Shown one piece after another: positions 2,538-9,992 of a stretch of DNA of 25,910 nucleotides. The notes under the pieces are model-generated. The model had not been told where the DNA came from, made no database searches, and saw nothing but the letters and a program-made list of their open reading frames with translations. The translations under genes and the position numbers were made by a program. This stretch comes from a virus: IMG/VR virus record IMGVR_UViG_3300023279_000840, positions 1 to 25,910 of that record; one strand, 5' to 3'. The first letter of the stretch is position 1, and every line of letters starts with the position of its first letter.

Positions 2538-3383
2538 ATGCCAGATATCGAGTACGTAGGACAGGTTAAAACCACATACGCCAGCGGCGTAGCCACTCTC
2601 ACCGTCGATGGTGTCGACCTACTGACACTCGACCCCACCTCCGCAGGGAACGTATCCACCCTGAACAAATCAAACGGCATCCCCATTGCGGAACTACAGT
2701 CCGTAGACCCCTCGCAGAAAGTCACCGTCTTTGATGACTTCCTCGGGGACACACTCCGAGACGAGGGCGCCGTCAAGGCAGGTAGCGGCACAGGCAACGC
2801 GGTGGCTATATCTGCAGGCCAGGGTGGGCGGCTCAGCATCACCACCGCCAGTGACGACGGTACGGTAGCAGCCAACTCATCCGCCTACACGGTGACCTCT
2901 GCTCTCGACTGGAGGGCTGACTCTGGTGGCCTGGTCATGGAGGCGAGACTCCAACTCGATGACATCAGCGAGGCGTATTGTTTTGTCGGTTTCACGGATG
3001 TTCTCCCTACAACTACGCTGGAGCTCCCTATCTTCCTTGTCACAACCGCCATTGACTCCGATGCTGCTAACGCTTGCGGTGTGTGCGTCGATGTCGACGG
3101 CACGACAGAGCAATGGTTCCACGGCGGCGTCAAGGCGAACACGGACACGACCCCAGCCTACTCGGGGGCGACACCGACCGAGGGGGCCTACGAAACCATT
3201 CGGGTTGAGGTATCCGCGGCCGGTGCGGTCCAGGGCTTTGTAGGGGGGACAGCGATCGGAGACGCGGTAGCTGCCGCGGTCACAATAACCACTCCCCTGT
3301 GTCCGGTAGTCATCGTGTCGAACCGCAGCGCCAATCAGATCGTAGCCTTGGTCGACTACATCTGGGTCCAGGCGGACCGCTAA
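2538..3383 (+). CDS. Structural protein with lectin/LamG-like beta-sandwich (copy 1)
   Basis: 281 aa, with a GGGGG ribosome binding site just before the ATG. The N-terminal 50 residues form a short adaptor (VKTTYASGVATLTVDGVDL). The remainder resembles a concanavalin-like beta-sandwich, with FDDFLGD near residue 65, then WRADSGGLVMEARLQLDD, CFVGFTD and a C-terminal VDYIWVQADR. It overlaps the start of a close paralogue (TAATG). Such modules bind sugars or decorate virions. The place between terminase and portal and the Asp/Thr/Gly-rich composition suggest a virion surface, decoration or fibre protein. The fold is inferred from sequence pattern only. Confidence 0.7.
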   Translation: MPDIEYVGQVKTTYASGVATLTVDGVDLLTLDPTSAGNVSTLNKSNGIPIAELQSVDPSQKVTVFDDFLGDTLRDEGAVKAGSGTGNAVAISAGQGGRLSITTASDDGTVAANSSAYTVTSALDWRADSGGLVMEARLQLDDISEAYCFVGFTDVLPTTTLELPIFLVTTAIDSDAANACGVCVDVDGTTEQWFHGGVKANTDTTPAYSGATPTEGAYETIRVEVSAAGAVQGFVGGTAIGDAVAAAVTITTPLCPVVIVSNRSANQIVALVDYIWVQADR

Positions 3384-4393
3384 TGGCCGTACCTGATATA
3401 TTCGCAGGGCCGCTGAAGCTTTCCTACGTCGAGTCCACTAACATCGCGACGGTATCTGTTCGCGGCGTCACGGTGTTTACCTTCGATGCTGACGGCGGGG
3501 GCGCGTCGACGTACCCCGGGAACATGACGGTCACAGGGACGTCCACCACTACCGGTGCATCGACACTCACCGGCAACACCGCAATCACCGGCACCCTGGG
3601 CGTCACAGGGCTCACGTCCGTCGTGAATGCTGCAGCGTCGGGGACCCTGGCCGTCACTGGCGCGTCAACACTCACTGGTGAGGTCAATGGGATACCGAAC
3701 GCAGAGCTAGAGACAATAGACCCCTCGCAGAAGGTGACCTACCTCACTGACTGGCTTGGTGATCTTATCCCAGACGAGCAGGCCGTCACCGCCGGTAGTG
3801 GGACAGGCAACGCGGTGGCGCTCTCTCCGGGCGCAGGAGGTAGGCTTTCTATCACTACCGCGAGTGACGACGGGCTCATCACCGCCAACGCCTCGGCCTG
3901 GGAGCTTGGTGCCTTGGACTGGCGCGCTGACCAGGGTGGTCTCGTCATGGAAGCCCGACTTCAGATCGACGACATCTCAGAAGCGTACATCTTCATCGGG
4001 TTCACCGATGTGCTGCCGAGCGGTACCCTTGAGGCCCCGGTCTTTCTCAACGCGGGCGACATCGACTCCGACGCCGCCAATGCCTGCGGTGTTTTCTACG
4101 ATGTTGACGCGACGACGGACGAGTGGTGCCACGGCGGCGTCGCCGGAGACACAGACACCGTTCCGGCCTTCTCCGGAAGCGCACCGACTGAAGGAGCTTA
4201 CGAGACAATCCGTGTCGAGGTCTCCGCGACGGGCGGGGTCAGGGGCTTCATCGGCGGCACCGCAATCGGCGCGGAGGTCGCGTCTGCGGTGACAGCAACA
4301 ACCCCCTTATGCCCTGTGATTGTCGTGGCCAATCGGAGCGCCAACGCAGTGGTGACGCTCGTGGACTATGTATGGGTACAGGCTGATCGATAA
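3383..4393 (+). CDS. Structural protein with lectin-like beta-sandwich (copy 2, with TG-rich stalk)
   Basis: 336 aa from ATG 3383, which shares a base with the upstream stop; an earlier in-frame GTG lies inside the previous gene and is less likely. It is a paralogue of the preceding protein: DPSQKVT, the WRADQGGLVMEARLQIDD segment, FIGFTDVLP, GAYETIRVEVSA and the C-terminal VDYVWVQADR match closely. It differs by an inserted stalk of about 50 residues made of TG.STLTG-like repeats, typical of trimeric phage fibre shafts. The pair probably arose by tandem duplication and may form two versions of one surface structure. Confidence 0.72.
   Translation: MAVPDIFAGPLKLSYVESTNIATVSVRGVTVFTFDADGGGASTYPGNMTVTGTSTTTGASTLTGNTAITGTLGVTGLTSVVNAAASGTLAVTGASTLTGEVNGIPNAELETIDPSQKVTYLTDWLGDLIPDEQAVTAGSGTGNAVALSPGAGGRLSITTASDDGLITANASAWELGALDWRADQGGLVMEARLQIDDISEAYIFIGFTDVLPSGTLEAPVFLNAGDIDSDAANACGVFYDVDATTDEWCHGGVAGDTDTVPAFSGSAPTEGAYETIRVEVSATGGVRGFIGGTAIGAEVASAVTATTPLCPVIVVANRSANAVVTLVDYVWVQADR
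3521..3679 (+). repeat. TG/STLTG-rich shaft repeats within copy 2
   Basis: The encoded segment repeats short units of the type (V/I)TGT, TTTGASTLTG, AITGTLGVTG and AVTGASTLTG. Related DNA words (for example GCATCGACACTCACCGG and GCGTCAACACTCACTGG) recur. The preceding paralogue lacks the segment, so it is either an insertion here or a deletion there. Repeats of this kind usually form beta-helical or triple-stranded fibre shafts. Confidence 0.6.
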
Positions 4394-5427: not shown

Positions 5428-7320
5428 GTGCCGTTTGAGGGAACAACTGGACGCCTAATCCCCAGCGGTGAGGGCACCGACTGGTGGAACCAGGATAAGA
5501 AGACAGCTCACGAGAGTATGTTCCGGGCGGTCGAGTTTCTCGATCAGACCCAGTCGTATCACCGCGCCGTCACAAACCTCTACCTCCGCTTCTACAGCAA
5601 CCGACTATCTGACGGTCTCTCGGGTGGTGAGTTCCTGCTCCAGGACACGGGGGACATTCTCAAACTCAACATCATCAAGGCGGTGGTGGATGCGGCGACT
5701 GCGCACATTGCAGCGAACAGACCACGGCCGCAGTTCCTTACATTCGGTGGGCGCAAGAGTCTTCGAGAGAAGGCGAAGAACCTGGGCAAGTTCGTCTCGG
5801 GGCAGTTCTACAAGAACGACACCTATTCTCTAGGGCTAGAGGTCTTCCGTGACGCCGCGCTCTTCGGGACGGGGTACATGCATGTCTACGAGCGTAACGG
5901 CGACATCGCGATGGAGCGGGTGTTCCCCGATGAGATCATCGTCGATCAGAACGAAGCCCGCTACGCGATGCCTCGCCAGCTCTTTAGACACAAGGAGATC
6001 ACTCGGCACCGCGCTGCAGGTTTATGGCCGTCCCATCGCGAAGACATAGAGCATGCTAGGCTTATAAGGGATGAACAAAACATTGCTGACACGATTGTCG
6101 ACCCGGTCTCTGTCGTAGAGGGCTGGCACCTACCATCTCACCCTGAGGCCAAAGACGGCCGCCACCTCATAGCCACCAGCAACGCTACGCTCGTGGACGA
6201 AAAGTACGAATGGGACTCCTTCCCGTTCGGCACCTTCCGGTGGTCGAAGGCCCCCCTTGGTTGGGAGGGGATCGGTCTCGCCGAAGAGCTCGCGAGCATC
6301 CAGAACGAGATCAACTACCTGCTGCAGAAGGCTCAGCGAATCCTAAATCTGGCGTCGTACCAGATTTGGCTAAAGAAGGGCGACGGCATCCCTGGCTCGA
6401 AGATGCAGAACACGGACATGGGCTTTGGCACATTCAAGTCTCAGCCTCCGGTGCATCTCCCGATCAACACGGGCCTTGGGGAGATCGACAACAAGATCGC
6501 ATTCCTCTGGGACAAGGCGTTCCAGCAAGCAGGCATCAGTCAGCTTCAGGCGCAGGGCAGCATACCGGCTGGCCTGAAGAGCGGTGAGGCCATCATGCGC
6601 TACAGCGATGAGACCTCGCAGCGCTTCCGGCACACGGCCCAAGAGTGGGAGCGGTTCTACATGGACCTCTCGAGCCTGACGCTCCGGCAAGCGGAGCAGG
6701 TCAGAGACCGCGGGGACGGAGACATCCGTGTGCTCGTGCAGGACGACAAAGAGCTGCAGGAGATCCTGTTCGACGACGTCGCGATCGAGGAAAGCGACTA
6801 CACCATGCGCGTCTTCCCGACGAACCTCCTCCCGGACACACCGGCCGGCAAGCTCGAGAGCATCCAGAACCTGGCCCAGGTGTGGCCTGACATTCAACCC
6901 CACATCCCTGAGCTCTTGGACGTCCCGGACCTGGAGTCCATCAAGTCTCGTCTCAGGGCACCGTTCGATCTCGTCGACCTCCAGATCGAGGGCATCCTCG
7001 AGCGCGGCGAGAACCACGAGCCATACCCGCAGGCAGACCTAGAATACGCACTGACGACAGCAAACCTCGCCGTCCTGCAGGCCGCTAAGGACAGCCTCCA
7101 CGAGAGCACGCCAGAGGACGAAGCCAACATTGAGAAGCTGCGAGTGTACGCGACCAGGGCCGCCAACCTCCTCAACCCACAGCCAGAACAGCAGGAACCA
7201 CCGATGCCCCCGCCTCCGCCGGAGGGCGCCATGCCCCCGGGAGGAGGAGGCGAGCCGCCGTTGCCCGCACCACCGGAGGGGCAGGGTCTTCTCCCTCCCC
7301 TCGAAGGACCACTTCAATAG
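5428..7320 (+). CDS. Portal protein
   Basis: The portal forms the dodecameric DNA gate at one capsid vertex and docks the terminase and tail. The 630-aa product has the expected elements: an N-terminal helical segment, ATAHIAANRPRPQFLTFGG (about residue 90), the wing-like GYMHVYERNGDIAMERVFPD (about 150) followed by DEIIVDQNEA, a long helical region with EINYLLQKAQRILNLASYQ (about 295), QLQAQGSIPAGLKSGEAI (about 370) and SDETSQRFRHTAQEWERFY. The GTG start at 5428 is forced because an ATG at 5424 in another frame stops after four codons. The C-terminus is a 47-residue Pro/Gly/Glu-rich tail (7177-7317), likely disordered. Order portal, scaffold, capsid supports the call. Confidence 0.88.
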   Translation: MPFEGTTGRLIPSGEGTDWWNQDKKTAHESMFRAVEFLDQTQSYHRAVTNLYLRFYSNRLSDGLSGGEFLLQDTGDILKLNIIKAVVDAATAHIAANRPRPQFLTFGGRKSLREKAKNLGKFVSGQFYKNDTYSLGLEVFRDAALFGTGYMHVYERNGDIAMERVFPDEIIVDQNEARYAMPRQLFRHKEITRHRAAGLWPSHREDIEHARLIRDEQNIADTIVDPVSVVEGWHLPSHPEAKDGRHLIATSNATLVDEKYEWDSFPFGTFRWSKAPLGWEGIGLAEELASIQNEINYLLQKAQRILNLASYQIWLKKGDGIPGSKMQNTDMGFGTFKSQPPVHLPINTGLGEIDNKIAFLWDKAFQQAGISQLQAQGSIPAGLKSGEAIMRYSDETSQRFRHTAQEWERFYMDLSSLTLRQAEQVRDRGDGDIRVLVQDDKELQEILFDDVAIEESDYTMRVFPTNLLPDTPAGKLESIQNLAQVWPDIQPHIPELLDVPDLESIKSRLRAPFDLVDLQIEGILERGENHEPYPQADLEYALTTANLAVLQAAKDSLHESTPEDEANIEKLRVYATRAANLLNPQPEQQEPPMPPPPPEGAMPPGGGGEPPLPAPPEGQGLLPPLEGPLQ

Positions 7321-7328
7321 GAGATTAG

Positions 7329-8456
7329 ATGGCTGAGGCAGACACACAGGCCCACCCGGGTGAAGAGGGAGAAGCGCAAGCAGCAATCGCAGCCGCAGCG
7401 GCTCAGGCCGCAGGCGTCGAAGCGCCTGTTGAGGATATCCCGGATGTGTCGAACGCCGACGAGAGCGCCAAGCTTCTCTATGAGCTCGCGAGCCAGGTAG
7501 AGGATGAGCTGCCGAAAGAGACTGCAGACGTCCCGTCGGTTGATCCGAAGGAGTCCGAGGAAGAGGAAGAGCCCAAAAAGGAAGAGCCCGAGCCAGACAC
7601 AGAAGAGACGACCATCCCCGGCAGCGACCCGTCGCCAGAGGACCTGGAGGCAAAGCCTGCCGTCGAGGAGGAGAGCTCGGTAGCCACCGCCTGGGCCCGG
7701 GCCAAGAAAGCTCAGAGGGAAAGCCGCGAGCAGCAAAAGACCATCCGGTCGATGCAGGAGCAGATCGACCAGCTATCGCTGAGCGCAAAGAGGGCGCAGG
7801 AAGACCTCCTTCGTGACCCCCTCGCTGAGCTCTCGAAGCACGGGGTGAAGCTTGAGCACTTGAACGACCGCGTCCTCGGGGACGGGAAACAGAGCAATGC
7901 CGAGCAGGCCTCGGTAGCCCAGAGCTCCGCACTCCAGCGTGAGCAGGCACGAGACCGAGAGATCAAAGAGATCAAAGACTACCTCGTTCAAAGAGACAAC
8001 CAGCAAGCGCTGAAAGACTACCGCAACGAGGTGAGCGGTCTTCTTGAAACAGACGACTTCCGCGTCCTGGCCTCCCTCGATGAGGCAGTGGACGAAGTGA
8101 TCGAACATGCCGGCAACTTTGCCGCGGAACATAAACGGGTACCGAGCGCACAAGAGGCCGCGCTTGGTGTTCAGAATGAATACCGGAAGAAGCTGAAACG
8201 ACTCGGGTCGTACGAAGCTGTCCGGCAAGAGCTAGGCCTCATCACAAAACCAGAAAAGACCACAGGCACCAGTAAGCCCCCAGAGACAGAGAAGCAGAGC
8301 GCGCAAAGCAAGAGCGAGGGCGCGTCAACATTATCTAACGAGGAGGCAGCAACCTCGGCGTCGGGTAGCCCGAACGGGTTTGATGACTGGGACGAGACGA
8401 GCCAATTGAAATGGCTCGCCAAGCAGATCCCGGACTCAGCCTGGCCGAGTACGTGA
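7329..8456 (+). CDS. Head scaffolding protein (probable)
   Basis: 375 aa with a GGAG ribosome binding site 6-7 bases before ATG 7329. The N-terminal 110 residues are extremely acidic and low-complexity (ESEEEEEPKKEEPEPDTEE), followed by long helical, coiled-coil stretches rich in Q, R, E and K (about residues 120-160 and 195-220) and a Ser/Thr/Lys-rich tail ending in a helix. This composition and the position between portal and capsid are typical of scaffolding proteins, which guide prohead assembly and then leave. No protease motif is seen. The name rests on composition and synteny, not on a conserved motif. Confidence 0.75.
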   Translation: MAEADTQAHPGEEGEAQAAIAAAAAQAAGVEAPVEDIPDVSNADESAKLLYELASQVEDELPKETADVPSVDPKESEEEEEPKKEEPEPDTEETTIPGSDPSPEDLEAKPAVEEESSVATAWARAKKAQRESREQQKTIRSMQEQIDQLSLSAKRAQEDLLRDPLAELSKHGVKLEHLNDRVLGDGKQSNAEQASVAQSSALQREQARDREIKEIKDYLVQRDNQQALKDYRNEVSGLLETDDFRVLASLDEAVDEVIEHAGNFAAEHKRVPSAQEAALGVQNEYRKKLKRLGSYEAVRQELGLITKPEKTTGTSKPPETEKQSAQSKSEGASTLSNEEAATSASGSPNGFDDWDETSQLKWLAKQIPDSAWPST

Positions 8457-8464
8457 TCTCTAAC

Positions 8465-8470
8465 GGAGGG
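8465..8470 (+). promoter_or_regulatory. Ribosome binding site of the split capsid gene
   Basis: GGAGGG lies 7 bases before GTG 8478. It is one of the strongest ribosome binding sites in the window and fixes the true capsid start here rather than at GTG 8781, which has none. Confidence 0.7.
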
Positions 8471-8477
8471 CTATAAA

Positions 8478-8531
8478 GTGGCAGAACAAACCACAACGAC
8501 TTTTGATGCTGCGTCAATTTCGGCGCCCCGC
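8478..8531 (+). CDS. Major capsid protein, exon 1 (18 codons)
   Basis: From GTG 8478 the frame reads MAEQTTTTFDAASISAPR and would then stop at TGA 8535 inside the intron. Removing the group I intron joins it in frame to the capsid body at 8784. A short, disordered, Thr-rich arm is a plausible capsid N-terminus. Without splicing, ribosomes starting here make only a 19-residue peptide. The alternative junction (exon 1 ending at U8532, exon 2 starting at 8782) also keeps the frame and inserts one Leu. Confidence 0.72.
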
Positions 8532-8783
8532 TTGTGAGAACTTGCGGTGTAATTGGGTGAATTGCTGGAACGCTAAGACGATGAGAATTGTTAAGCCAAT
8601 CAGCAGCCAAGCCGTCCGATGTAAAAGGCGGGCGGAAGGTTCAGAGACTAGCGGCCGAGCGAAAGCAGTAACGCCGCCACGAGCGCCCAACACCCTTCGG
8701 GGTGAAGATATAGTCCAACCCTAGGGGGAAACCTCTAGCGCGGGCACAAACGGTCCGCGGCAGTTGAAAAACTGCTTAGTGTG
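8532..8783 (+). ncRNA. Group I self-splicing intron in the major capsid gene, no ORF
   Basis: The conserved core is readable: P AATTGCTGGAA (8560-8570), Q AATCAGCAGCC (8598-8608), R GTTCAGAGACTA (8639-8650) and S AAGATATAGTCC (8705-8716). Stems I can pair: P1 8528-8531/8544-8547; P3 8553-8559/8684-8690; P4 8562-8567/8601-8606; P5 8572-8574/8594-8596, extended by 8577-8582/8587-8592 with a GAGA loop; P6 8607-8608/8638-8639; P6a 8612-8617/8630-8635; P7 8646-8650/8711-8715; an inserted P7.1-like stem 8651-8655/8673-8677 enclosing a GAAA hairpin; P8 8691-8695/8700-8704 with a UUCG loop; P9 8721-8727/8732-8738 with a GAAA loop; P9.1 8739-8744/8754-8759; P9.2 8760-8765/8770-8775 with a GAAA loop. 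The last nucleotide is a G, as required. A helix between P7 and P3 suggests subgroup IA. No homing endonuclease is encoded. Boundaries are uncertain by a few bases. Confidence 0.9.
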
Positions 8784-9992
8784 AAGCAGATCTACCGGGG
8801 CGACAATTTAAAAAACACCACGTACCAGATGCGTCCGATGTACGCGTCCATTCCTAAGTTTGAAGGACTGGGCGGTCGGAACATGCCGGTCGTGAACATC
8901 TACGCTAATGCGATGGGCAGAAGTGCTGACTTCGCGACAGCGCAGAGCAATGCAACCGCGGCGAAGATTGAGGACTTCCTCATCACTCGCGTCAACGACT
9001 ATTCGGTGGCGACGGTGAGCGGGGAGGCCGTCGAGGCTTCGCAGGGTGACAAGTATGCGTTCCTGAGCGCGATGAAGGTCCAGATTGATACGGCAGCCAA
9101 TGCGCTGGCGGACTCGATCGAGACTCATCTGCCGCGCGCAGGCGATGGTTCGATCGGGACAATCTCGTCCGGGTCAACAGTCACCAACCAGACAATCACT
9201 CTTGATCCTATCCAGGAGGTTTCCAACTTTGAACCGGGCATGACCCTGCAGTCCGCAGCGACTGCTACGGGGGCGACTCGGACAGGGACGGAGATTCTTG
9301 CTGGGGTCAACCGAGTTGCCGGGATTCTAACTGCGACTAGCGCGCAGTGGGACACCGTCTGCACGGCGATTGCAGCTAGTGACCTTCTCTTCGTCGAGGG
9401 CGACGCGAACAACGCTACCGCTAACGTGAAGATGGAGGGTTTCGCTTCCTGGTTTCCGGCGGCAGCTCCTGCGTCAACGGCATTTTTCTCGGTGGACCGC
9501 ACCGCGGACTCCCGTTTGTACGGGCAGTTCCACTCAGGAACCACGCAGCCGATCGAGGAAGCCCTCATCGACGGCGGGTCTCTGACGGCGACTGAAGGCG
9601 GGTCGGTAACCCTGGGGTTCATGCACCATGCTCAGCAGCGGAAGCTAGTGAAACAGATTGGGTCCAAGGTTAACTACCAGCGGACACCTGCTTCCGGGGC
9701 CGGCAAGGAGATGGCAGCTGTCGGGTTCAAGTCGGTCAGAATTATGACTGACAACTCTGAGTGCGACATGGTCGCGGCCAACAAGTGCCAGCCGACCATT
9801 GCCTGGATGCTTGAGAAGAAAACCTGCTTGCTGGCCTCACTTGGTCAGTGCGTAAAGATTTTGAATACTGACGGGCAGAAGATTTTGCGGCAGTCGAGTC
9901 TTGACGGATACGAGGTTCGCCTCGGGTCGAGGCACAACTTCGCGAGCCTGAAGCCTAACCACAACGTGCGCGTGACACTAGCGAGCCCGTGA
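8784..9992 (+). CDS. Major capsid protein, exon 2 (HK97-type fold, probable)
   Basis: 402 codons; with exon 1 the protein is about 420 aa, a usual length for a capsid. It begins KQIYRGDNLKNTTYQMRP, followed by FEGLGGRNMPVVNIYAN, a helical segment around EDFLITRVNDYSVATVSGEA, the DKYAFLSAMKVQIDTAANA helix (spine-helix-like), a beta-rich insertion, and a C-terminal domain with the MHHAQQRKLVKQIGSK helix. Gene order after portal and scaffold supports capsid identity. GTG 8781 is in frame but has no ribosome binding site and lies in the intron. The capsid call rests on length, order and general pattern; I do not see a diagnostic short motif. Confidence 0.82.
   Translation, partial: KQIYRGDNLKNTTYQMRPMYASIPKFEGLGGRNMPVVNIYANAMGRSADFATAQSNATAAKIEDFLITRVNDYSVATVSGEAVEASQGDKYAFLSAMKVQIDTAANALADSIETHLPRAGDGSIGTISSGSTVTNQTITLDPIQEVSNFEPGMTLQSAATATGATRTGTEILAGVNRVAGILTATSAQWDTVCTAIAASDLLFVEGDANNATANVKMEGFASWFPAAAPASTAFFSVDRTADSRLYGQFHSGTTQPIEEALIDGGSLTATEGGSVTLGFMHHAQQRKLVKQIGSKVNYQRTPASGAGKEMAAVGFKSVRIMTDNSECDMVAANKCQPTIAWMLEKKTCLLASLGQCVKILNTDGQKILRQSSLDGYEVRLGSRHNFASLKPNHNVRVTLASP

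Follow-up and report, generated by a model that had tools for sequence, protein, structure and literature searches.

The DNA analysed here (the window) is an entire IMG/VR record of 25,910 bases. Its head genes run in the order terminase, portal, scaffold-like gene and capsid, with several structural genes between the terminase and the portal, and the predicted intron lies between the scaffold-like gene and the body of the capsid gene. The following features define the locus:

947-2533: terminase large subunit (phrog_5909, E 5e-5)
5428-7320, + strand: portal (phrog_332, E 1.3e-11; phrog_156; P22_portal, 28.2 bits against a cut-off of 26.1)
7329-8456, + strand: upstream scaffold-like gene, without a family match
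8465-8469, + strand: Shine-Dalgarno-like GGAGG, 8 nt ahead of GTG 8478 (sequence)
8478-8507, + strand: predicted exon 1, GTG ... TTT GAT, 10 codons, ending in U8507 (best in-frame stop-free junction, translation)
8508-8759, + strand: predicted group I intron (subgroup IA-like), 252 nt, ending in G8759 (RF00028, covariation, P1/P10 and frame)
8760-9992, + strand: predicted exon 2, probable major capsid protein, 410 codons and then a stop (phrog_14242, gene order)

Downstream of the intron lies a long open reading frame (8781-9992), and the host gene probably encodes the major capsid protein. The single family match of this protein, to the major head protein family phrog_14242, is weak (E 2.1e-4) and aligns residues 83–219 of the exon 2 frame to profile positions 90–216 of 396. 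The order of terminase, portal, scaffold-like gene and capsid supports the name. A Pfam search with the capsid protein gave no match and a PDB search gave nothing useful, while a single-sequence structure model of the exon 2 protein alone had a pLDDT of 31, too poor for fold comparison. When the exons are joined, residue ∼93 sits on phrog_14242 position 90. The profile match thus leaves about as much N-terminal room as the spliced protein has, so the spliced length fits.

From the P22-type portal match slightly over its cut-off and a sub-threshold SU10 adaptor match in the window, it is plausible that the phage is podovirus-like. Peptide scans of IMG/VR gave no usable relatives of the capsid, portal or terminase, and a scan of bacterial and archaeal genomes gave no capsid relatives. 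Searching phage genomes with tblastn returned two very distant terminases only, those of S-CBS4 and Rctr16k, and the Rctr16k genome carries no annotated capsid gene for comparison. The phage is without a close relative in the collections searched. No intronless relative of the capsid gene that would display the empty site appeared in the phage, viral (IMG/VR) or bacterial and archaeal genome collections searched. The capsid of locus L040, which has phrog_14242 in common with the window, was considered as a relative and rejected, as BLASTP gave no real alignment.

Elsewhere in the window, 25278-25895 matches phrog_3704 (ferredoxin / auxiliary metabolic gene) with 172 bits and E 2e-50 at the contig end, and the contig that ends in this gene is otherwise mostly without matches. 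The neighbouring proteins of 2538-3383 and 3299-4393 appear alike by eye, and at L128 2306-2965, just 3′ of another group I intron core, lies a relative of the first with 27% identity. No tRNA was detected when the window was searched for them.

Family membership and fold of the intron

The original prediction placed an ORF-less group I intron between the scaffold gene and the capsid body and proposed an Infernal search with the Rfam model Intron_gpI. That search bore the prediction out: RF00028, the Rfam group I intron family, matched 8493-8738 on the + strand over the full length of the model (1–253) with 83.5 bits (E 3.8e-20), against a curated cut-off of 50 bits. This was the sole covariance-model match in the window, and relaxing E to 1 within 8300-9000 brought up no other RNA family. 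A scan with a further guessed intron core pattern gave zero matches. As had been claimed, the P (AATTGCTGGAA, 8560), Q (AATCAGCAGCC, 8598), R (GTTCAGAGACTA, 8639) and S (AAGATATAGTCC, 8705) elements occur in order, each string in a single copy in the window.

The fold was drawn by hand with helices P1, P2, P3, P4, P5, P6/P6a, P7, P7.1, P7.2, P8, P9 and P9.2. Those downstream of P1 are:

8528-8547, + strand: P2 with a GAGA loop (manual fold, sequence; outside the covariation test)
8553-8690, + strand: P3, 8553-8559 with 8684-8690 (covariation: 95% of cells paired, two-sided changes in 6 of 7 pairs)
8563-8605, + strand: P4, 8563-8568 with 8600-8605, and inside it P5 with a GAGA loop (RF00028, covariation)
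8606-8640, + strand: P6 and P6a, the latter 8612-8618 with 8629-8635 (P6a 89% paired, two-sided changes in 7 of 7 pairs)
8646-8715, + strand: P7, the guanosine-binding helix, 8646-8650 with 8711-8715 (RF00028, covariation alignment, in which it is invariant)
8651-8677, + strand: P7.1, 8651-8655 with 8673-8677, and P7.2 with a GAAA loop, 8659-8666 (sequence; 48–64% paired)
8691-8704, + strand: P8, CACCC-UUCG-GGGUG (covariation: 93% paired, two-sided changes in 5 of 5 pairs)
8721-8738, + strand: P9 with a GAAA loop (RF00028, computed fold)
8739-8759, + strand: P9.2-like hairpin CGCGGGC...GUCCGCG, adjoining the 3′ splice site (computed fold)

The P3–P8 core, including the P3/P7 pseudoknot, is present in the window intron, with standard pairs at every position of the core fold. 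The hand-drawn fold holds the at least four GNRA-type loops that had been predicted: GAGA in L2 (8536-8539) and L5 (8583-8586), and GAAA in L7.2 (8661-8664) and L9 (8728-8731). P8 is capped by UUCG. The final hairpin extends to the proposed G8759, so P9.0 is indistinct. An additional P7.1/P7.2 that follows P7 and comes ahead of the 3′ strand of P3 is a mark of subgroup IA; its presence at 8651-8677 places the intron in this subgroup, with the qualification that P7.1/P7.2 is only partly backed by covariation and differs in length among relatives.

We scored the window intron's own fold on an alignment of 64 phage intron cores differing by more than 10%, taken from the IMG/VR core-pattern matches listed. 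Over these 64 introns 84.6% of cells were paired, compared with a shuffle mean of 66.7% and with about 29–45% when partners were slid by one to three columns. The covariation score was 0.420 versus 0.134 in shuffles, none of 500 of which equalled it, and two-sided changes numbered 584 versus 214. Most of the signal came from P3, P6a and P8, which have two-sided changes in nearly all of their pairs. P4 and P7 are invariant across the alignment, P4 partly because the sampling pattern selects for it, and P4, P6 and P7 of the window intron equal the sample consensus at each pair. Thus, the core of the hand-drawn fold was upheld on related phage introns. The unconstrained minimum-energy fold of the intron is only mildly unusual (z −2.0); since such a fold cannot display the P3/P7 pseudoknot, we kept it out of the evidence for the core.

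Predicted splice junctions and reading frame

To place the junctions, every U...G combination whose P1 reaches 4 bp or more was considered. The best junction with an open frame cuts between U8507 and 8508 and between G8759 and 8760, excising 252 nt, and has a P1 and a P10 of 5 bp each:

8503-8517, + strand: P1, UUGAU (8503-8507) with GUCAA (8513-8517), with a U8507-G8513 wobble at the 5′ splice site
8508-8512, + strand: guide GCUGC, which pairs with exon 2 GCAGU (8760-8764) as P10 (junction search)

At these predicted ends exon 1 finishes in a U paired to a G in P1 (U8507-G8513) and the intron finishes in a G (G8759). Taking out 8508-8759 joins the GTG 8478 frame to the capsid, as the original prediction of a 252-nt removal had stated, and opens a frame of 421 codons that includes its stop, at 9992. 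A capsid protein begun at GTG 8478 would include VAEQTTTTFDAVEKLL, the predicted spliced product reads VAEQTTTTFDAVEKLLSVKQIYRGDN..., and the predicted intronless reading across the junction is ...TTTTFDAVEKLL.... The strong ribosome binding site that had been noted upstream is GGAGG at 8465-8469, which stands at normal spacing before GTG 8478; GTG 8781 has no comparable site.

Dinucleotide shuffles of both sides reached the same or a better in-frame junction score in 2–7% of cases and shuffles of the 3′ side only in 13%, and three further in-frame junctions score within 2 bp of U8507/G8759. Given these rates and near-equal alternatives, we regard U8507 and G8759 as the likely ends of the intron, short of proven. 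It is accordingly conceivable, if unlikely, that a group I intron is present with its splice sites shifted by a few bases and the capsid N-terminus slightly altered, for example at U8510/G8759 (249 nt out) or U8514/G8781 (267 nt out). The three other in-frame, stop-free junctions reach 8–9 paired bases versus 10, but 8507/8759 keeps the frame open with the best total for P1 plus P10, and its P1 loop has the usual short length. As a separate observation, exon 2 opens with a perfect hairpin, GCAGUU-GAAA-AACUGC (8760-8775); because the first five of these bases also serve as the P10 partner, the hairpin and P10 would compete.

It is much less probable that the element is a degenerate, non-splicing relic and that capsid synthesis starts only at GTG 8781. 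That GTG does head an open frame, and splicing of the intron is predicted from sequence. However, P4, P6 and P7 are at consensus in all pairs and the core has standard pairs throughout, the ribosome site follows the upstream gene at GTG 8478 and not at GTG 8781, and a start at 8781 would shorten the protein N-terminus by ∼17 residues. About as improbable is an element that only looks like a group I intron and acts as a regulatory structure or untranslated leader for the capsid. Its position would suit this, as high expression is expected of the gene that follows, but the catalytic intron model is matched full-length, with the guanosine site and all four of P, Q, R and S included; a start codon preceded by a ribosome site lies upstream, and excision restores the frame.

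Our preferred reading, to which we assign a probability of about 0.93, is that 8508-8759 is a compact IA-like group I intron inserted after capsid codon 10 and spliced as follows. In the late transcript the intron would fold into its P3–P9 core, and guanosine bound in P7 would attack 3′ of U8507, which the U-G pair of P1 holds in place. Exon 1 would then attack after G8759, aligned via P10, and translation of the spliced message from GTG 8478 would yield the capsid protein. Family membership follows from the covariance model, the core helices from covariation, and the junction from the restored frame together with P1 and P10; catalysis, the exact ends and the mode of spread we infer. Taken together, this is a genuine compact group I intron in a probable major capsid gene, and it is probably functional. 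Capsid protein ranks with the most abundant products of an infection, so such an intron must splice efficiently. Gene callers would misplace the capsid start, missing the first ∼17 residues, and start miscalls of this kind probably affect many phage records with like insertions.

Mobility and capsid genes as intron hosts

In agreement with the original prediction, the intron (8508-8759) carries no endonuclease ORF. Nor did any of the window proteins scanned match a homing endonuclease. The mark of a mobile intron, a homing endonuclease encoded within it, is thus absent. With no endonuclease of its own, the intron would be either stably inherited or able to spread only with an endonuclease from elsewhere. 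There is precedent for collaborative homing that involves introns without an ORF (PMC3984707), and as the contig is possibly incomplete, a trans-acting endonuclease may be encoded outside it. At locus L044, an HNH-like motif (by eye) occurs in the open frame at 8249-8600 on the reverse strand, upstream of the intron's P3. This intron has a related core and precedes a capsid gene also matching phrog_14242, which suggests that L044 is an endonuclease-bearing relative.

Hosts were counted in two samples of IMG/VR loci whose introns were found by core pattern, L002-L120 and, for another core variant, L122-L188. Short introns account for 84 of 123 first-sample matches listed. Among those matches, 39 of the 72 downstream ORFs of usable length are major head proteins, where BLAST clusters or single proteins were called by a scanned representative and near-duplicates were counted; the families include phrog_1328, 267/27239, 1357, 334, 10, 283, 9953 and 422. 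In the second sample 12 of 55 downstream ORFs match phrog_10, and ∼20 of 55 match a major head protein family of one kind or another, provided that no ORF falls under two families. Head-gene hosts span at least eight PHROG families, with insertions at differing points in the gene. Capsid genes are therefore the commonest recognised intron hosts in both samples, within the limits of sampling, as IMG/VR contigs are selected partly for hallmark genes. A literature search that covered few subscription journals found no paper stating that capsid genes are the commonest intron hosts. Two intron cores per contig, a few hundred to ∼900 bases apart, were seen at L057, L097 and L070; at L057 (3973 and 4345, reverse strand) and L097 (1016 and 1932) both cores apparently lie in one head gene.

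This wider count suggests that capsid genes are favoured by small group I introns, beyond the nucleotide-metabolism genes of the classic isolates. We raise, tentatively and as a doubtful generalization, the idea that, among uncultured phages generally, small group I introns without an endonuclease have major capsid genes as their main target and hit them independently, at many points, in several capsid families. If so, the cause could be homing endonucleases that act in trans on capsid genes, or a gain from splicing-dependent capsid synthesis, and the window intron would be one example of capsid-targeted introns.

Comparison with known systems

The original prediction had treated a capsid insertion as unusual, and this part of it found no support. 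Split capsid genes are already known, in LittleE, Tuc2009 and crAss-like phages, and they are common among uncultured phages, being the commonest recognised host in our IMG/VR samples. A capsid-gene intron has been demonstrated in the Cluster J mycobacteriophage LittleE (PMC3706429), and the same paper cites the capsid intron of Tuc2009. Like the LittleE element, ours is a probable group I intron within a major capsid gene, here a probable one, with exon 1 ending in U and the intron in G, ends that are predicted for ours. Splicing was shown for LittleE by RT-PCR and N-terminal sequencing (PMC3706429), whereas here it is predicted from sequence. The LittleE intron spans ∼820 bp, is predicted to encode a LAGLIDADG endonuclease and interrupts a siphovirus HK97-type capsid gene; the window intron is 252 nt without an ORF and lies after codon 10 in a different capsid family.

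In size the window intron is closer to that of the BAKA/Optimus minor tail gene, which is also small (265 bp), endonuclease-free and located in a virion gene, and whose splicing was confirmed (PMC3706429); the two differ in that one interrupts a tail gene and the other a capsid gene. Capsid-gene introns have also been described in crAss-like phages, where group I introns occur in MCP genes of the Delta and Zeta groups as one does here (PMC7886860). Those introns were found via endonuclease domains, and one MCP gene is in five pieces (PMC7886860). The window intron also resembles the short head-gene introns from IMG/VR (for example L006, L032, L040 and L026), which have the same core as it does and mostly the same short size class, and the L040 head gene also matches phrog_14242. 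These IMG/VR introns otherwise occupy other capsid families and other insertion points, and their cores are at most 79% identical to that of the window.
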